64,000 nt of DNA from Hyphomicrobium sp. NDB2Meth4 (GTDB taxonomy: Bacteria > Pseudomonadota > Alphaproteobacteria > Rhizobiales > Hyphomicrobiaceae). Shown piece after piece: positions 8,307-15,308 of this stretch. Positions within the stretch are counted from its first letter, which is position 1; every line of letters begins with the position of its first letter. Position numbers and translations under genes: made by a program. The DNA is taken from assembly GCF_900117445.1 (NCBI RefSeq), contig NZ_FPEJ01000003.1:186001-250000 (forward strand), read 5' to 3'. The notes beneath the pieces were generated by a model that was not told where the DNA came from, did no database searches, and saw only the letters and a list, made by a program, of their open reading frames with translations.

Positions 8307-8804
8307 TCAGTCGGCTTTGCCTTCGACCTCGTTGGCCGGAGCAGCCTGCAGCTGGCCGTAATTCTGGATGCCGATGTTCTTGAGAAGGTCGAGCTGCGTC
8401 TCGAGGAAGTCGATGTGGCCTTCCTCGTCGCGCAGCAGATCCTCGAACAGGTCCATCGACACATAGTCTTTATGCTGACGGCAAAGCTCGCGTGCCTTGG
8501 AGTAGAATTCCTGCGCGATGTACTCGCCCTTCAGATCGCACTCCAGAACCTCTTTCAGGTTCTCGCCGATCATCAGCGGCGCGATCTCCTGCATCTTCGG
8601 GAAACCCTCGAGGAAGATGATGCGCGTGATGATCTTGTCCGCGTGCTGCATCTCCTCGATAGACTCTTCGCGCTCCTTCTTGGCGAGCTTGGTGTAGCCC
8701 CAGTCATCAAGGCGGCGATAGTGCAGCCAGTACTGGTTGACCGCGCCGAGCTCCAGCTTCAGAGCAAAGTTCAACGCGTCGATAACTTCCTTATTACCCT
8801 TCAT
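8307..8804 (-). CDS. bfr: Bacterioferritin
   Basis: A 165-residue four-helix ferritin that stores iron in a 24-mer with haem at dimer interfaces. All diiron ligands are present at the usual positions: E18, E51, H54 and the later [11 protein letters not shown] segment for Glu127/His130, and M52 is in place as the haem ligand. The C-terminal tail (about 10 residues, acidic) is slightly extended. It lies downstream of a Bfd-like gene in the same direction with 147 bases between, so it probably has its own promoter. It is expected to be iron regulated. Confidence 0.97.
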
Positions 8805-8951
8805 GGCCGCCCTCTATGCCTCAACTGAATTGGTCGGGTGCTGAGTCGAACGTTGGCGCTGGCGACGTGACTCAGGAGCGCGATCCTCGCCTCGAGGACG
8901 CGGGCGCAATATAGATTGGTAAATTAGAAAGATTCCAGCCTAAAGTGCCGC

Positions 8952-9290
8952 TCAGGCGGATTTGCGAACGATTTCCTTCGATTGCCGAGCCGGCTGGTCG
9001 GCATTCGAACCCGGGGTCAATCGCTCGCGTTTTGTCTTGAACGTCAGCAGCTTATTGCGCGTCGTGGCACTCAGGGTGGGCGAGATCAGGCCCTTTTTCT
9101 CCAGCTCGTCGACCTTGTTGTAGATCGTCTCGACGGCAACAGGGGCGCAGCTGCAGCAGTTCATGCGCTTGGCGAGGTGGCGGAAAACCACGCCTGGCGT
9201 CGGGATCGGGGCGTTGGGAGCATTCAAAATCTCCACGAGCGCCGTCTCGACATCCCGGTCAGTTATGACAGTGCACGAACAAACGATCAT
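8952..9290 (-). CDS. Bfd-like (2Fe-2S) bacterioferritin-associated ferredoxin
   Basis: A 112-residue protein with the Bfd-type cluster pattern: C4 and C6 in VCSCTVITDRDV and C45/C48 in NCCSCAP, followed by the second conserved helix. Bfd reduces and mobilises iron from bacterioferritin. The spacing between the two cysteine pairs (38 residues) is longer than in the E. coli protein because of a proline-rich insertion (residues 24-33). The C-terminal 45 residues are a basic extension absent from short Bfd proteins. Position just upstream of bfr fits the role. Confidence 0.85.
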   Translation of the reverse strand: MIVCSCTVITDRDVETALVEILNAPNAPIPTPGVVFRHLAKRMNCCSCAPVAVETIYNKVDELEKKGLISPTLSATTRNKLLTFKTKRERLTPGSNADQPARQSKEIVRKSA

Positions 9291-9448: not shown

Positions 9449-9940
9449 CTAAACTGGACGCTGCGGCGCTGACTGCTGCGAACCCCGGCGCGTGCGACTT
9501 CCGCCCGCCTTCTGGCTGCCCTTACCTGTACGGCCGCCCGAGTCCCGCCCCCCTGCCCTGCGGGCAGCACCGGCGGCCATATCCTCGAGCGTATGCTGGT
9601 CCAGAACGCTGATGAACGCGTCGAGCGCGTCGTCGACGATCCGATGCAGGCTCCCGCGCCCGTCATCCTCTTGCTCGTCGTGCCCGAGGCTCTCGATCGA
9701 GCGAACCACGTCCCCGATGCGAATTTGCGACGCAGGGCGCGCCAGACGCACGCCACCATGCCGGCCTCGCACAGAGGCAAGGAACCCGGCCTTCGACAGC
9801 AGATGCACGATCTTGAAGGCGTTCTGCTGCGTAATATCGAGGCGGCCGGCAATATCGCCCACCTTGATCAGCGAACCCTCAGCCGTTGCGCAGTCGATCA
9901 GAATGCGGACTGCGTGACTGGTAGATTTATTTAGGCGCAT
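9449..9940 (-). CDS. Rrf2-family transcriptional regulator without cluster cysteines
   Basis: About 163 residues. The N-terminal winged helix is typical of Rrf2 proteins (NKSTSHAVRILI, DITQQNAFKIVHLLSKAGF, RGRHGGVRLARP). NsrR, RirA and IscR carry three cysteines in the following dimerisation region for an Fe-S cluster; here that region (SLGHDEQEDDGRGSLHRIVDD) has none, and the only cysteine is in helix 1. The last 40 residues are Gly/Arg/Ser-rich and disordered. The start at 9940 is preceded by GAGAG and fits the family; a longer frame to 10015 is possible. Its place beside bfd and bfr suggests iron or redox control, but this is inference. Confidence 0.85.
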   Translation of the reverse strand: MRLNKSTSHAVRILIDCATAEGSLIKVGDIAGRLDITQQNAFKIVHLLSKAGFLASVRGRHGGVRLARPASQIRIGDVVRSIESLGHDEQEDDGRGSLHRIVDDALDAFISVLDQHTLEDMAAGAARRAGGRDSGGRTGKGSQKAGGSRTRRGSQQSAPQRPV

Positions 9941-10303
9941 GCGAATCTGGCTCTCAGACTTGAGACTGATCAGCGTTACGGCATCTTGGGCAAGCTTGGC
10001 AACCACTTCTCCCAATCGCCCATGCTTCTAAAGCAAAAATATCGACTCCGAGAGTCAAATTATCAAGCTAACTGCCGTTCCAGAGCCAAAAAAAGCTCGT
10101 TTTCCCTCCGCCGTTGCGTCCCGGCATCGACCCGCTGTCATGACAATGTCACATGCGGCTTCTGGCACATAGGCCCCGCCGAGGCGCACCCTATTCCGTG
10201 GAGCCCCTGTTCCGGCTGGAACAGCGGTGTCGCCTGGTTCGCCTCATAGTCCAGTTCAACGAAGCCCAAACGGGCCGTGGAGCTGAACCCGCCGGAGACG
10301 ACC
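9941..10303. other. Divergent regulatory region between Rrf2 gene and motif gene 1
   Basis: This 363-base gap holds no convincing gene. It contains a perfect 10-base palindrome TGTCATGACA at 10136-10145 followed closely by TGTCACA, and the inverted-repeat element at 10208-10223 described separately. It should carry the promoters of the two divergent genes. Confidence 0.6.
10208..10223 (+). promoter_or_regulatory. Shared upstream element, site 1 (TGTTCC-N4-GGAACA)
   Basis: TGTTCC-GGCT-GGAACA is a perfect 6-bp inverted repeat with a 4-base spacer, 80 bases before the ATG of motif gene 1. The same 16-base layout recurs before motif genes 2 and 3 and before the gene at 27998. It is either an operator or part of a promoter. 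Confidence 0.55.
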
Positions 10304-10801
10304 ATGACCAAGCTGCTCGCCATCGCCACCGCATTCATCCTAGCCATCTCGACTTCCGTGACCACCGCCCAAGCCGGCATGCGCGTCGGCATTGGTATCG
10401 GCGTCGGCGCACTGGCGCTCGGCGCCATCGCCAACGCTCACCGCCACCACGAAGCTGAGGAATATCGCGCCCGCAAAAAGTCTCGCACGGTCTACCGTGA
10501 ACGCGAGAAGAGCCCTGCCCGCGCCGCCAAGAAATCGATGAGCAAGCAGCAGCAGACCGCGGAGATCGAGGTCGAGGCCGAGCCCGTCTCCAGCGAAGCA
10601 AGCAGCATCGCCTCCAGCAGCAATGACGCTGCACCGGCGATCACGACCGGCTCGACCGATAAGCCCGCCGAGGCGAAGGCTGAGACCGCATCCCTAGTCT
10701 CGGAAGAAACTCCGGAAGCAAACGATGAAGCCGGCCACGCGATGGATTGCAAAAAGTTCTTCCCCTCCGTCGGCATGACGCTCTCTGTACCCTGCGAGTA
10801 A
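10304..10801 (+). CDS. Exported protein with C-terminal CKKFFPSVGMTLSVPC motif (motif gene 1)
   Basis: 165 residues, no recognised family. A signal peptide (MTKLLAIATAFILAIS to AQA) is followed by a glycine-zipper-like hydrophobic stretch (RVGIGIGVGALALGAIANA), then a basic region, then a long Ser/Ala/Glu-rich disordered segment. The protein ends in DCKKFFPSVGMTLSVPCE, with the two cysteines bracketing 14 residues. The next two genes end almost identically. GGAG lies six bases before the chosen ATG; the earlier start at 10277 would spoil the signal peptide. A strong terminator follows, so this gene can be transcribed alone. The function is unknown; the C-terminal box may be a sorting, anchoring or disulfide-locked binding element. 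Confidence 0.8.
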   Translation: MTKLLAIATAFILAISTSVTTAQAGMRVGIGIGVGALALGAIANAHRHHEAEEYRARKKSRTVYREREKSPARAAKKSMSKQQQTAEIEVEAEPVSSEASSIASSSNDAAPAITTGSTDKPAEAKAETASLVSEETPEANDEAGHAMDCKKFFPSVGMTLSVPCE

Positions 10802-10836
10802 GCTACAACCTCAACGCCACCACCAGACGCTTCGAT

Positions 10837-10867
10837 CGGCCCCGGATCTCCGGGGCCGATTGTCTTT
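10837..10867 (+). terminator. Intrinsic terminator after motif gene 1
   Basis: A 9-bp perfect stem CGGCCCCGG/CCGGGGCCG (10837-10845, 10850-10858) with an ATCT loop is followed by ATTGTCTTTTG. This makes motif gene 1 a separate transcription unit from motif gene 2. Confidence 0.8.
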
Positions 10868-10887
10868 TGCGAGCACGCTCTCGCGCA

Positions 10888-10903
10888 TGTCACGCCAGGA
10901 ACA
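10888..10903 (+). promoter_or_regulatory. Shared upstream element, site 2 (TGTCAC-N4-GGAACA)
   Basis: TGTCAC-GCCA-GGAACA lies 61 bases before the ATG of motif gene 2. The right half-site is identical to site 1; the left half-site matches 4 of 6 positions. A CGTT occurs 18 bases after GGAAC, one base too far for a good EcfG promoter. Confidence 0.5.
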
Positions 10904-10963
10904 GCGCTGCATTCATCACGCGTTCATCATGCTCCGAGCGATGCAATCTGCTCGGGGACTGCA

Positions 10964-11425
10964 ATGAACAAGCTACTGCCGTTGAGTGCCACGCTCATGA
11001 TTTTCGGCTCCTTGCCGATGTCCGCCGCGCTGGCCTGGTGCGATGACGACTGCGTTATCGAAGCACACGAAGCAGCATACGAACGCGCCGCCGCGCGCGA
11101 AGAAGCCGAAGAGGAAGGCTACGTCGTAGAGCAGCAACCGCGTCATCGGCCGCGTCGGGACGAGCCACGACAGGCCGAACAGGCCTACGCGCGTACTCGC
11201 CAAAGCGCTGCAAAGCGCGAGGACGATCAGCCAGTCGCACGTCGGCCCGCCGATAGCAGCTCGCAACCACGGGCAACGGCCAAGATCGAAAATTCATCCA
11301 TCGCCACCAGCGGCACGCGCCTGGCCGAAGGCACCGACGACCGCAGCGGAACGGCGCACCGCGAGGTCGGTTGCAAGACGTTCTTCCCGACGGTCGGCAT
11401 GACGCTTTCCGTTCCCTGCGATTAG
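10964..11425 (+). CDS. Exported protein with C-terminal CKTFFPTVGMTLSVPC motif (motif gene 2)
   Basis: 153 residues. The signal peptide (MNKLLPLSATLMIFG to AALA) is followed by a mature start WCDDDC, so this paralogue has an extra N-terminal cysteine pair. The middle is an Arg/Glu/Ala-rich helical or disordered region. A short block KIENSSIATSG matches TENSSITTAS in motif gene 3 and, more loosely, SEASSIASS in motif gene 1. The C-terminus is GCKTFFPTVGMTLSVPCD. The three proteins therefore share an ENSSI-like block and the terminal Cys box while the rest has diverged. No function is recognised. Confidence 0.78.
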   Translation: MNKLLPLSATLMIFGSLPMSAALAWCDDDCVIEAHEAAYERAAAREEAEEEGYVVEQQPRHRPRRDEPRQAEQAYARTRQSAAKREDDQPVARRPADSSSQPRATAKIENSSIATSGTRLAEGTDDRSGTAHREVGCKTFFPTVGMTLSVPCD

Positions 11426-11453
11426 CGAGCGGACAAAACAAACTCCGACCCGG

Positions 11454-11469
11454 TGTCACAGCAGGAACA
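11454..11469 (+). promoter_or_regulatory. Shared upstream element, site 3 (TGTCAC-N4-GGAACA)
   Basis: TGTCAC-AGCA-GGAACA lies 100 bases before the ATG of motif gene 3. It matches the site at 27909 at 17 of 18 positions over the extended TGTCACAGCMGGAACAGC, although the two are 16 kb apart. Confidence 0.55.
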
Positions 11470-11568
11470 GCACGATTGCACAGGCCCGGCGATGATGCGG
11501 GCACGTTGGGCGCAAGCATCAGACACCGCCCATTCAACCGAAATGCACTCGCATCGTTGGAGGAAACA

Positions 11569-12105
11569 ATGAAATGGTCTCCCCTCGCTCTCATCGCAGC
11601 GATTATCTGCGCCGCCACGACATTCGCTTCGGGCGCTGAAGCAGGCTTCAGGATTCGCCTCGGCTTCGGCGGACCACTCCCCGCTTTCACTGCCCACGGC
11701 AACAGCTATCACGGCGCCCGCGAATATCACCGCAAGCGTTACGTTGCGCGCCACCACGCCAAGAAGCCGAAGGTGCACGTCGCCAAAAAGAAATCTGCCG
11801 AACCCAAGGTCGCGAAAAAGCAGCAACAGGAGAAGGTCGCCGCCAAGCCGGCAACGAAAAAAGCCCTTGCCGTTGCCAAGGCGCCTGCACAGGTTTCAGC
11901 GCCGGCCGACACCGAGAACTCATCCATCACAACCGCGTCTCTGGAAGCCGGCGAGCCCACTGCCGACATCGACAACACTGAGTCGATCGACGTTCAGATT
12001 CCCGAACCCAAGCCCGCAATCAAGCCGGGCAAGCAGGCGAGCAAGCTTGACTGCAAGAAGTTCTTCCCATCCGTCGGCATGACCCTCACTGTGCCATGCG
12101 AATGA
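11569..12105 (+). CDS. Exported Lys/Ala-rich protein with C-terminal CKKFFPSVGMTLTVPC motif (motif gene 3)
   Basis: 178 residues. Signal peptide MKWSPLALIAAIICA to AEA, then a short glycine/hydrophobic block (FRIRLGFGGPLPAF), a His/Tyr/Arg block, and a long Lys/Ala/Pro-rich stretch like those that bind polyanions or span the periplasm (TonB- or histone-like composition). The conserved ENSSI block and the terminal DCKKFFPSVGMTLTVPCE follow. GGAGG sits six bases before the ATG. Downstream, after a stem-loop, comes the DevC-like permease gene in the same direction. The function is unknown; the domain order (signal, linker, Cys box) is the same in all three paralogues. Confidence 0.8.
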   Translation: MKWSPLALIAAIICAATTFASGAEAGFRIRLGFGGPLPAFTAHGNSYHGAREYHRKRYVARHHAKKPKVHVAKKKSAEPKVAKKQQQEKVAAKPATKKALAVAKAPAQVSAPADTENSSITTASLEAGEPTADIDNTESIDVQIPEPKPAIKPGKQASKLDCKKFFPSVGMTLTVPCE

Positions 12106-12239: not shown

Positions 12240-13436
12240 ATGCAGGCGCACGCCAATGTTATGTCGCTGGCCGCCGACGAGCTTCAAGGCAAGCCCAAGA
12301 CCGTCAAAATGGCGGCCAAGCTCGCCTACCGAAACCTGTTTCACGACCGCCTCAGCCTCATCGTCACGCTCACTGGCATCGTCTTCTCGGTCGTTCTGGT
12401 CGCCGTTCAGTGCGGTCTCTACATCGGTTCTGAACGCATGATCGCCGCCATGCTCGATCAGTCGAATGGCGACCTGTGGGTCGTTCCCCTCGGCACCAAG
12501 AGCTTCGATGATCCCTCACTGCTCATCGGCCACGAGAAATATTCCGTGCTTTCGACCACTGGCGTTGCCGGTTCGGAGGAACTCGTCGTCGGATTTGCCG
12601 CCTGGCGCAAACCCAAAGGCGGCACCACCGCCGTGCTGCTCGTCGGCTCCGACCATCAGCAGGGCTCGCTCAAGCCCTGGAACCTGACGCAAGGCAACCT
12701 CGGCGACCTCGATGCCCCATTCACCGTCGCCGCCGACGACACCTATTTCAAGGATCTCGGCATCGACAAGATCGGCGACACCTCCGAGATCAATGGCGTA
12801 CGCGTCCGCATCGCCGCCGTCACGCATGGCATCCGCTCCTTCACCACGCTGCCCTACGTGTTCACCTCGCTGAAGCAGGCCCGCATGCTGCTCGACGCGG
12901 GGAGCAATCAGGCGTCCTACACGCTGGTCTCCGTCGCACCGGGCGCAGACATCGAGACGGTTCGCCAAGACCTCATAGACCGCCTGCAGGATCGCGAGAT
13001 CCTCACCCAGCAGGAGTTCCGCAATCGCTCGGTTGACTACTGGCTGTTCCAGACCGGCGCCGGCTCCGCCCTCATCGCCGGCGCTGCGCTCGGGATGATC
13101 GTCGGCGTTGTCATCGTCGCCCAGACCCTCTACTCGAGCACCAAGGATCACATCAACGAGTTCGCCACCTTGCGTGCACTCGGCGCCTCTGCCGGGTATA
13201 TTCACAAGGTCATTCTCATCCAGGCAATGCTCAGTGCCGTTGTCGGCTATGGCATCGGCATGGTGCTCTCGATGCTCGTCATCTGGGCATCCAAGGACAC
13301 CACACTCTACATCGTCATGACGCCAGGACTGGCGCTGTTGCTTTTCGCTCTCACGATTGGCATGTGCGCTATCGCCGCCGTATCCGCCATCTTCAAAGTC
13401 ACTCGCATCGATCCCGCAGGAGTCTTCAGCCGATGA
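12240..13436 (+). CDS. devC: DevC-like ABC exporter permease (FtsX/MacB type)
   Basis: About 398 residues. One membrane segment near residues 35-55 (SLIVTLTGIVFSVVLVAVQ), a periplasmic domain of about 200 residues, then three membrane segments in the C-terminal FtsX domain. The segment SSTKDHINEFATLRALGAS is the DevC/MacB-type coupling region that contacts the ATPase. Such permeases do not move substrate through the membrane themselves but drive a tripartite periplasmic pump by mechanotransmission. AAGGGGAACCAC precedes the chosen ATG. Its stop overlaps the ATPase start (ATGA). Cyanobacterial DevBCA exports glycolipids; the cargo here is unknown. Confidence 0.88.
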   Translation: MQAHANVMSLAADELQGKPKTVKMAAKLAYRNLFHDRLSLIVTLTGIVFSVVLVAVQCGLYIGSERMIAAMLDQSNGDLWVVPLGTKSFDDPSLLIGHEKYSVLSTTGVAGSEELVVGFAAWRKPKGGTTAVLLVGSDHQQGSLKPWNLTQGNLGDLDAPFTVAADDTYFKDLGIDKIGDTSEINGVRVRIAAVTHGIRSFTTLPYVFTSLKQARMLLDAGSNQASYTLVSVAPGADIETVRQDLIDRLQDREILTQQEFRNRSVDYWLFQTGAGSALIAGAALGMIVGVVIVAQTLYSSTKDHINEFATLRALGASAGYIHKVILIQAMLSAVVGYGIGMVLSMLVIWASKDTTLYIVMTPGLALLLFALTIGMCAIAAVSAIFKVTRIDPAGVFSR

Positions 13437-14278
13437 CCGCTACCAACGACCGCCGTGTGCTTCTCGAGGCCAACGGCATCACCAAGGTGTTCGGCTCGGG
13501 GGCTGGCGAGGTCATGCCGCTCAAGGGCATCGACTTGAAGCTCTACGCCGGCGAGCTCACGTTGCTGATGGGACCATCCGGCTCCGGCAAGACGACGCTG
13601 CTGTCGATCCTCGGCTGCATCCTGTCGCCGACCAAGGGCAGCCTCGTCGTGGCCGACAACTCGACGGAAGGACGAGATGCCGAAGGCTTGGCCAACATCC
13701 GCCGCCAGCACGTCGGCTTCGTGTTTCAGGGTTACAACCTGTTCCCCACGATGACCGCGCGGGAGAACGTGATGCTGGCGCTCGATGTTCGCTCGCGCCC
13801 GGTGGTCGACCCGCCGACGCACGCACTCAATGCATTGAAGGCGGTCGGCCTGGGCCATCGCGCCAACGCCTACCCGGCAAAACTGTCGGGCGGTGAGAAG
13901 CAGCGCGTTGCCATTGCCCGCGCGCTCGCTGGCGCCCCGTCAGTCATCCTGGCCGACGAGCCCACTGCCGCCCTCGACGCCGAGAATGGCCGCGCCGTGA
14001 TGCAGCTTCTTTCCGAGGTCGCAAAAGATCCTTCCCGCGCTGTTCTCGCCGTAACACACGATCACCGCACGCTCGCGTATGCAGATCGTATCGTGCGCAT
14101 CGAGGACGGGAAAATTCACAGCGACGAGCGGCCGAACAAGAGCGCCACACAAGGGTACGACGCCGGTCACGACGCACACGCCATTCAATCCGCTCCGGCG
14201 GCAACCGCCCCGGACGACAAACCATCGACGCCGTCAAAGACCTTCGGCGGCCGTTTCAGGATCAGACGCCATGCTTAA
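13433..14278 (+). CDS. devA: DevA/LolD-like ABC transporter ATPase
   Basis: 281 residues. All ABC ATPase motifs are present: Walker A GPSGSGKTT (near residue 45), Q-loop FVFQGYNLFPTMT, signature LSGGEKQR, Walker B VILADEPTAALD and the switch VTHDHR. It belongs to the MacB/LolD/DevA branch that works with FtsX-type permeases. The C-terminal 60 residues after EDGKIHSDERP are an unusual Ala/Pro/Lys-rich tail not needed for catalysis. The start overlaps the permease stop by four bases and the stop overlaps the next gene by eight, so the three genes form one tightly coupled operon. Confidence 0.93.
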   Translation: MTATNDRRVLLEANGITKVFGSGAGEVMPLKGIDLKLYAGELTLLMGPSGSGKTTLLSILGCILSPTKGSLVVADNSTEGRDAEGLANIRRQHVGFVFQGYNLFPTMTARENVMLALDVRSRPVVDPPTHALNALKAVGLGHRANAYPAKLSGGEKQRVAIARALAGAPSVILADEPTAALDAENGRAVMQLLSEVAKDPSRAVLAVTHDHRTLAYADRIVRIEDGKIHSDERPNKSATQGYDAGHDAHAIQSAPAATAPDDKPSTPSKTFGGRFRIRRHA

Positions 14279-15308
14279 AGCCATTGGTATTGTAGCCGCT
14301 CTTACTGGCGCCGCCGCGCTTGGCTACGTGATGAGTGACAGCTCTTATTTTTCCGGCGACAGCAAGGCCGCAAAAGCCACGGAGAAAACCGGCCCGCAGT
14401 GGGTGGCGGCAGCCCCGGGCCGCGTCGAGCCAGGGTCCGGCGAAGTCCATATCGGCGCCGCCATTCTCGGCCAGGTCGCCGACGTCACCGTGAAGATCAA
14501 CGACAAGGTCGAAGAAGGCGAGCTGCTCATCCGCCTCGACGACGAGGAAGCACGTGCCCGCCTCGCCGCCGCAGAAGCAGAGGCCGGTCTGCGCAAACGC
14601 CAACGCGACGCCGAGCCAGCCACCAGTGGACGCGAGAACGTCACCAAAGGCGAAGACAACGTCTTTTCCGCGGAGCGCGAAGTCATCGGCGCTCGCTTCG
14701 AGCTCGATGCCGCCCTTACCGGCAAGCGTCGTGGCGAAACCACAGACCAGCAACTCGCCGACGCCCGCCGCCGCCTCGCCAAAGCCGAGGAGCGCGTCGA
14801 ACGCGAACGCCTCGCCTATGCCCAGGCCCAGGCGAAAGCCAACCTGCCTTCACCCAACCAGTTTGAATCCGCCCTGACCGCAGCCCGTGCCAACGTCGCG
14901 CTCGCCGCCTCGCAGCTCGACAAGACGCGCATCCGCTCGCCGCGCGCCGGCACCGTGCTGCAGCTCAACGCCAAGAAGGGCGAGATCGTCGCCCCCTCGC
15001 CCGATCAACCGCTCGCTGTCGTTGGCGACATGGCCGTGCTGCACGTCAAGGCCGAGGTCGACGATGGCGACGTTGCCAAGCTCAGGATCGGTCAGAAGGC
15101 CTTCGTGCGCTCGATCAACTATCCCGGCCGCGACTTCGAAGGCACCGTGGTCGACCTGGCGCCCACGATGGCAACGCCGCGCATCTCCGCACGCGGACCG
15201 CGTCGCCCGTCCGACATCGAGGTGCTCGAAATGACGATCAACCTCGAAGGCAACGCCCCGCTGCTGCCCGGCATGCGCGTCGACGCCTTCGTCCGCCCCG
15301 ACAAGTAA
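14271..15308 (+). CDS. devB: DevB/HlyD-like periplasmic adaptor
   Basis: 345 residues. A single N-terminal membrane anchor (about residues 3-20) is followed by a lipoyl/barrel-sandwich half (PGRVEPGSGEVHIGAAILGQV), a long alpha-helical hairpin (about residues 90-215, with heptad-like Ala/Glu/Arg content), the second lipoyl half (KTRIRSPRAGTVLQLNAKKGEIV) and beta-barrel domains. This is the adaptor of a tripartite efflux system that links the inner-membrane DevCA complex to an outer-membrane TolC-like channel. No TolC gene is nearby. The start was placed at 14271 because the upstream extension is only ATPase sequence in another frame. Confidence 0.9.
   Translation: MLKAIGIVAALTGAAALGYVMSDSSYFSGDSKAAKATEKTGPQWVAAAPGRVEPGSGEVHIGAAILGQVADVTVKINDKVEEGELLIRLDDEEARARLAAAEAEAGLRKRQRDAEPATSGRENVTKGEDNVFSAEREVIGARFELDAALTGKRRGETTDQQLADARRRLAKAEERVERERLAYAQAQAKANLPSPNQFESALTAARANVALAASQLDKTRIRSPRAGTVLQLNAKKGEIVAPSPDQPLAVVGDMAVLHVKAEVDDGDVAKLRIGQKAFVRSINYPGRDFEGTVVDLAPTMATPRISARGPRRPSDIEVLEMTINLEGNAPLLPGMRVDAFVRPDK

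Follow-up and report, generated by a model that had tools for sequence, protein, structure and literature searches.

We detected three tandem, co-directional genes in Hyphomicrobium sp. NDB2Meth4 that encode exported proteins with unlike bodies and one common C-terminal end, a two-cysteine box that recurs in one bacterial family and shows a genetic partnership with one class (class I) of DevBCA/MacB-type exporter. On balance, we favor reading this box as a disulfide-closed C-terminal docking or export tag, which would serve one exporter in a many-to-one fashion. The window, i.e., the whole stretch of 64,000 nucleotides analyzed here, holds the following features:

8307..8804, - strand: bacterioferritin, a recurring neighbor of the locus in three genera
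9449..10015, - strand: regulator resembling Rrf2/RirA, divergent from box gene 1 and also present in six loci of genus g1 (L087-L091 and L183)
10304..10801, + strand: box protein 1, 165 aa; Sec signal and mature N-end of glycine-zipper type (GMRVGIGIGVGALALG), followed by a low-complexity middle and the C-terminal box
10748..10798, + strand: box of protein 1, CKKFFPSVGMTLSVPC-E
10833..10862, + strand: terminator-like hairpin 3' of box gene 1, between genes 1 and 2; 13 pairs, T-rich tail
10964..11425, + strand: box protein 2, 153 aa; Sec signal and WCDDDC N-end, followed by an Arg/Glu-rich middle and the C-terminal box
11372..11422, + strand: box of protein 2, CKTFFPTVGMTLSVPC-D
11569..12105, + strand: box protein 3, 178 aa, devC-adjacent; Sec signal and GFRIRLGFGGPLPAF N-end, followed by a middle that is first His-rich and then Lys/Ala-rich, and by the C-terminal box
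12052..12102, + strand: box of protein 3, CKKFFPSVGMTLTVPC-E; predicted beta-hairpin with strands at residues 161-166 and 171-176 of the protein
12240..13436, + strand: class I DevC-like permease of the MacB/FtsX type, start taken from the sequence
13433..14278, + strand: DevA-like ATPase, start read from sequence, overlapping the devC stop
14271..15308, + strand: DevB-like periplasmic adaptor of the HlyD family, start taken from the sequence

The C-terminal ends of proteins 1, 2, and 3 (DCKKFFPSVGMTLSVPCE, GCKTFFPTVGMTLSVPCD, and DCKKFFPSVGMTLTVPCE, respectively) share the consensus C-K-x-F-F-P-x-V-G-M-T-L-[ST]-V-P-C followed by one acidic residue. Their N-termini carry a hydrophobic Sec-type signal ending in A-x-A, as judged by eye and by a crude rule, and each protein contains an ENSSI-like block (SEASSIAS, IENSSIAT, and TENSSITT). 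A degenerate DNA pattern of the box matched exactly three times in the window, always at these genes, and never in 100 shuffles, so that the open reading frames and the pattern match bear out the original prediction of three tandem exported proteins with a signal, an ENSSI-like block, and a near-identical end. The terminator-like hairpin after gene 1 suggests that the three genes are not simply a single transcript; five sites of this type occur in the region against 3.4 expected by shuffling, and this one has the longest stem.

Fourteen residues lie between the two cysteines, as first read in the window, and this spacing is kept in 131 distinct C-terminal box genes gathered from the fetched regions, a set that was collected with fixed cysteine spacing, so that its constancy is no independent test. 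The box measures 16 residues from Cys to Cys, is followed by 0-4 residues beyond the second Cys in the 131 genes, and contains no hydrophobic helix. Four strong matches fall outside this set, three with an internal box (L093, L096, and L147) and one with a longer tail (L139). Whole-protein AlphaFold2 models predicted a beta-hairpin for the box in two proteins with different bodies: in the model of protein 3, built with 33 other box proteins (mean pLDDT 58, pTM 0.18), the last two blocks reached pLDDT 86 and 82, with strands at residues 161-166 and 171-176, and in the second protein (mean pLDDT 59) the strands lie at 209-214 and 219-224, with 88 and 82 for the last blocks. Taken with the invariance of the two cysteines, this predicted fold suggests a disulfide between them. 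The box is under purifying selection: over 16 codons, the ten pairs formed by the five boxes of the source genome differ by 4-8 synonymous and 0-5 nonsynonymous changes each, one pair having 4 synonymous and 5 nonsynonymous differences.

No described family had been recognized in the box at the outset, and none emerged here. In the three window proteins, box region included, no curated Pfam or NCBIfam model scored above its cut-off, and the best match to the box among the sequences of solved structures reached only E 0.27; a box forming part of a known domain thus found no support in the domain-model and solved-structure searches. The fold search with the protein 3 model returned two matches with E above 8, which are meaningless at a mean pLDDT of 58. 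When 34 box proteins were compared with domain models, the recurring matches were mainly histone-H1-like, besides scattered weak ones; nine of the 34 matched a histone H1-like model although signals are present, because their middles are rich in Lys, Ala, and Arg. In the open-licence literature, including work on Hyphomicrobium secretomes, alphaproteobacterial DevBCA, and C-terminal sorting signals, we found no description of the box tag.

A Sec-type signal was recognized by the crude rule in 117 of the 131 proteins, some of the others being cut by contig ends, and glycine is the commonest residue at position +1 after the cut predicted by this rule (53/117). Conservation was originally thought to be limited to the terminus, which did not hold, as the mature N-ends also fall into recurring classes: a regular expression assigned 51 of the 117 to a GGxRLxFGxPLGSF type, 27 to a glycine-zipper type, 12 to a CxxC type, and 27 to none of these. 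The recurring motifs are GGxRLxFGxPLGSFxA, the glycine-rich GRGxALGxGLG, CISCEYxPEV, and WCDDDC. The middles are variable, of low complexity, and Lys/Ala/Arg-rich, with a median mature pI of 9.5 for the 117 proteins with a recognized signal. Some box proteins bear known domains, i.e., TPR, DUF2147, YARHG, and, by eye, one PepSY-like domain. A Trp/Gly-rich domain, also seen by eye, precedes the box in L126 9443-10450 (g20), L096 7814-9103 (g6), and L122 9590-10363 (g14), and Pfam gave no match in the L126 and L096 proteins. In genus g6, small exported proteins carry an internal box (L096 11801-12265, L147 8658-9149, and L306 30-479) followed by a C-terminal two-cysteine block, which reads CSEILxRIQLDD...LRxGC in L096 and L306; the L096 gene lies downstream of devC. 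In L093 (7640-11140), the box is located inside a cyclase-PDZ-Sel1-PG_binding protein of 1167 aa, in its likely periplasmic part.

Besides the three window genes, the source genome has two single box genes elsewhere on contig C15. A single-sequence search detected the box in 63 of 99 family genomes (E<=1), and a 57-row profile in 80 of 99, across 20 of 25 genera (E<=0.1), two of the 80 being weak (G012, E 0.078; G082, E 0.0017). Positive family genomes hold 1 to 12 matches, carried by different bodies and in most cases located at the end of the protein. Recent local duplication is ruled out as the source of the box, since the source genome's own boxes differ mostly synonymously and relatives carry the box at protein ends. 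Profile searches beyond the family, in draws of 297 order, 289 class, and 249 order genomes that overlap and contain at least 13, 1, and 10 family members, gave no match across both cysteines; weak out-of-family matches (10, 19, and 11 genomes; E 0.002-0.1) were rejected, as none of them reaches both. A scan for the exact pattern across 84,980 species (257 Gb), which may omit the source genome and is too strict for divergent boxes, found 52 stretches, hosted by Hyphomicrobium, Filomicrobium, Hyphomicrobiaceae, unclassified proteobacterial bins, and one Devosia-titled bin that is family genome G043. In 44 of the 52, the box region is letter-for-letter identical to fetched family loci, and the other eight were placed in the family through a shared isolate name or match coordinates agreeing with those of the single-sequence search, and L275 by a devC match identical to that of G016. 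Named isolates with the box are Hyphomicrobium zavarzinii, H. sulfonivorans, and Filomicrobium insigne.

The exporter downstream of the box genes had been hinted at through DevB as a possible partner, and the neighboring DevCAB cluster proved to be genetically linked to the box. It comprises a permease with a periplasmic domain, an ATPase, and an HlyD-type adaptor, as in MacB-type exporters, the topology being read by homology. The DevC and DevA models scored best for their subunits and the DevB model second best, and all remained below the NCBIfam cut-offs (TIGR01185/02982/02971; DevC 140.7 v 290.35, DevA 228.4 v 295.8, and DevB 80.7 v 129 bits). A DevC search of the 99 family genomes separated two main paralogue classes, class I, whose 71 copies in 70 genomes reach E about 1e-148 or better, and class II, at E about 1e-120 to 1e-144; a more distant third copy is present in a few genomes (e.g., G000:C14). 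All 71 class I loci were fetched, along with 39 sampled class II loci. Contig ends truncate two of the former (L132 and L157), and in 68 of the 69 evaluable ones, from 18 genera, a box gene stands directly upstream of devC, ending within 800 bp on the same strand in 67 (median distance 133 bp) and having a longer tail in the remaining one, L139. This adjacency is kept although the flanking genes differ between genera. The sole exception, L137, is a second class I copy in G014 with a divergent devB. Genus g10 has a divergent box (CRRYSPAIAGLVDVPCE-like), which occupies the same position at all 18 loci. Examined for co-variation with the exporter, clade-specific changes in this genus show only a mild excess in class I over class II subunits (DevC 15 v 8, DevB 15 v 5, and DevA 10 v 7). 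In the 39 sampled class II loci, on the other hand, no box-like end was found within 1500 bp upstream of devC. In G023 the exporter is split, with devC and devAB on different contigs (L120 and L121), and each half has its own upstream box gene.

DevC trees recovered class I as one clade (support 0.90 and 0.86). In the tree of 117 DevC sequences (support 0.86), this clade holds all 71 class I copies and L187 of G042, which was first placed in class II by score and is class I by tree; no box was matched in G042, where a run of N immediately precedes this devC. The sister group consists of three DevC from other families, two of which (L213 and L216) are preceded by an ORF that looks hydrolase-like by eye, with no box upstream, the third (L212) having too little upstream sequence. 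Because the two readable sister DevC outside the family lack an upstream box, the box looks like a family innovation, and class I devC was likewise found only in this one family among the genomes searched.

The same partnership is seen in the co-occurrence across the family. With G012 and G082 counted as box-less, the box is present in 70 of the 70 genomes with class I by score and in 8 of the 29 without it (Fisher p 2.7e-15, with phylogeny ignored), or in 70 of 71 when G042 is counted as class I. Genomes with both and genomes with neither occur within genera g3, g6, g19, g20, and g21, the only 'neither' of g21 being the weak G082 and G042 being counted as 'neither' in g3. Among the eight genomes with a box and no class I devC, the contig ends 10 and 326 bases after the box in G034 and G045, the latter having glpK- and bfr-like neighbors as in the window, and the box of G044 lies in an internal-box protein. 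In the remaining five, G003, G006, G030, G054, and G079, the box is C-terminal and no class I devC was detected; completeness is 93-100% for four of these, and all five count as true or undecided exceptions. In genus g7 (L184 and L185), genomes that are 94-100% complete have one box gene and no class I devC, and this gene adjoins a TRAP-transporter-like gene, as seen by eye.

Linkage at 68 of 69 class I loci and at none of 39 class II loci, co-occurrence, tracking within genera, and the split exporter of G023 together associate the box with class I, and the two in all likelihood act in one pathway. The original suggestion of a functional tag, for example a disulfide loop, with a common partner agrees with the diverse architectures, the purifying selection, and the hairpin predicted as a fold of its own, and the 1-12 matches per genome on unlike bodies lend it further support. 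We propose that the box would be a family-specific tag, folded as a disulfide-closed beta-hairpin of 16 residues, on Sec-exported proteins whose middle is disordered and mostly basic and whose N-terminal module is one of several, and that its partner would be one subclass of DevBCA/MacB-type tripartite ABC exporter, i.e., class I DevC with DevA and DevB. Judging from their signals, the tagged proteins would be exported by Sec and cleaved, after which the hairpin disulfide would close in the periplasm, as the invariant cysteines and the predicted fold suggest. The hairpin may then dock on the periplasmic part of DevC/DevB; gene linkage and co-occurrence make such direct recognition by the exporter plausible, if a little short of probable. 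In a last step, ATP-driven transfer might bring the tagged protein, or its load, to a TolC-type channel and the surface, by analogy with MacAB-enterotoxin STII and Aat-CexE. MacB-family exporters are described as taking Sec-exported, disulfide-bonded substrates such as enterotoxin STII from the periplasm (PMC8277102, PMC5985334). A complete two-step route, in which Sec and then, once the hairpin has folded, one dedicated DevBCA-type exporter would move all tagged proteins of a genome to the surface or outside, is put forward tentatively, and export of the tagged proteins themselves, which rests on these analogies, is likewise doubtful; folded TPR-type clients fit a TolC duct poorly, which is awkward for it. 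The five genomes with a box and no class I devC detected, L137, G042, and the few internal boxes (L093; L096, L147, and L306) speak against the tag-exporter reading, as does the low overall confidence of both models (mean pLDDT 58-59). The box-less paralogue, class II, serves as a natural negative control to the matched class I subclass. Being small and portable, such a periplasmic tag would also make a useful tool.

The main rival to a docking or export tag is docking without export, which we regard as possible, though doubtful. FtsX-type ABC proteins recruit periplasmic partners, and the hairpin could in the same way be a periplasmic docking module that attaches diverse proteins to the class I exporter, whose cargo would be something else, such as a lipid or a chelator; the basic, disordered middle would then act as a tether spanning the periplasm, with the N-module touching peptidoglycan or the outer membrane. 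Conserved N- and C-ends around a variable basic middle (median pI 9.5) with low pLDDT are as expected for such a tether, bulky domains bear the tag, and the protein with an internal box in L093 has PG_binding domains. An alpha/beta hydrolase gene (Pfam Hydrolase_4, 'serine aminopeptidase S33'), the only non-exporter enzyme gene recurring in five genera, lies within 4.5 kb upstream at all 39 sampled class II loci and at 28 of the 60 class I loci for which 3 kb or more of upstream sequence was at hand, and probably belongs to an older operon; its presence near every box-less class II locus implies that this exporter type can do without a tag, which also suits docking. Docking alone, however, leaves unexplained why up to 12 unlike proteins of a genome are tagged and why the box sits almost constantly at the extreme end. 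The same hydrolase bears on the very improbable idea that box proteins are precursors from which the hairpin is cut and secreted via DevCAB as a disulfide peptide, the rest being a leader. A small disulfide-type hairpin at the extreme end of a protein encoded beside a MacB-type exporter speaks for it, and MacB-type pumps are described as exporting small disulfide peptides (PMC8277102), but the only recurring enzyme is this hydrolase, present also at box-less class II loci, the N-modules are conserved like the end, and some boxes belong to multidomain proteins, with a few lying internally.

The gene neighborhood offers another reading, hinting at a link to iron. At 8307-9290 (-), bacterioferritin and, by eye, a Bfd-like ferredoxin lie divergently upstream of the box genes. 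Bacterioferritin was matched in class I regions of g1 and g21 and beside the box and devAB half of one g23 genome (G023), whereas the class II regions searched, which extend over a shorter upstream distance, gave no match; in g1 an Rrf2/RirA-like regulator is divergent from the box genes. The box proteins might accordingly be periplasmic metal handlers working with the exporter, the box being a fold cap or a metal site. In 52 proteins, the 30 residues after the N-motif contain 7.2% His vs 0.8% elsewhere, as would suit metal handling. We nevertheless hold it to be improbable: at least three His occur in this stretch in only 14 of the 52, the bacterioferritin link covers only 3 of 18 genera within the regions fetched, and a CxnC hairpin without conserved His or Asp makes a poor metal site. 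Hitch-hiking by descent, with a lineage-specific periplasmic family syntenic with devCAB by chance and no functional contact between them, would fit the confinement of both box and class I devC to one family among the genomes searched. It is already disfavored and hardly probable, as the adjacency outlives changes in the flanks, presence and absence track each other within genera, and box genes stand by both halves of the split exporter and at 0 of 39 class II loci.

Compared with known systems, the window exporter resembles MacAB-TolC and DevBCA-HgdD in its subunit types and gene order, and differs from curated Dev proteins in that all three subunits score below the NCBIfam cut-offs. To our knowledge, no MacAB/DevBCA member has a tagged substrate family of this kind. 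The family is described as acting on periplasmic substrates by mechanotransmission (PMC5985334, PMC8277102). In the Aat system, the small Sec-exported proteins CexE/dispersin are put on the surface by a LolCE-like permease, an ATPase, an adaptor, and a TolC-like channel (PMC7943197). The box proteins are similar in their Sec-type signals and in the glycine that comes first after the predicted cut in 53 of 117, whereas CexE is reported to be marked by N-terminal glycine acylation via AatD (PMC7943197) and the box proteins would be marked by a C-terminal hairpin. Among the recurring neighbors of the locus, we noticed no AatD-like gene.

The box is not a member of the LPXTG, PEP-CTERM, or GlyGly-CTERM kinds of signal, in which a short motif precedes a transmembrane helix and a C-terminal basic cluster, being a predicted soluble two-cysteine hairpin with no transmembrane helix and no basic tail, and having a partner that is not a protease. 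Many-to-one C-terminal sorting is nevertheless reportedly at work in PEP-CTERM/exosortase. Sorting of the same kind is described for GlyGly-CTERM/rhombosortase, in which many unlike exported proteins share a short C-terminal region that is co-distributed with one membrane partner, often encoded adjacently (PMC3237569). The box follows this many-to-one pattern, with 1-12 proteins per genome and presence in 70/70 genomes with class I devC v 8/29 without. Its partner, on the other hand, is an ABC exporter where rhombosortase is a protease, and, unlike for rhombosortase, its adjacency to the partner is kept even in genomes with many tagged proteins.
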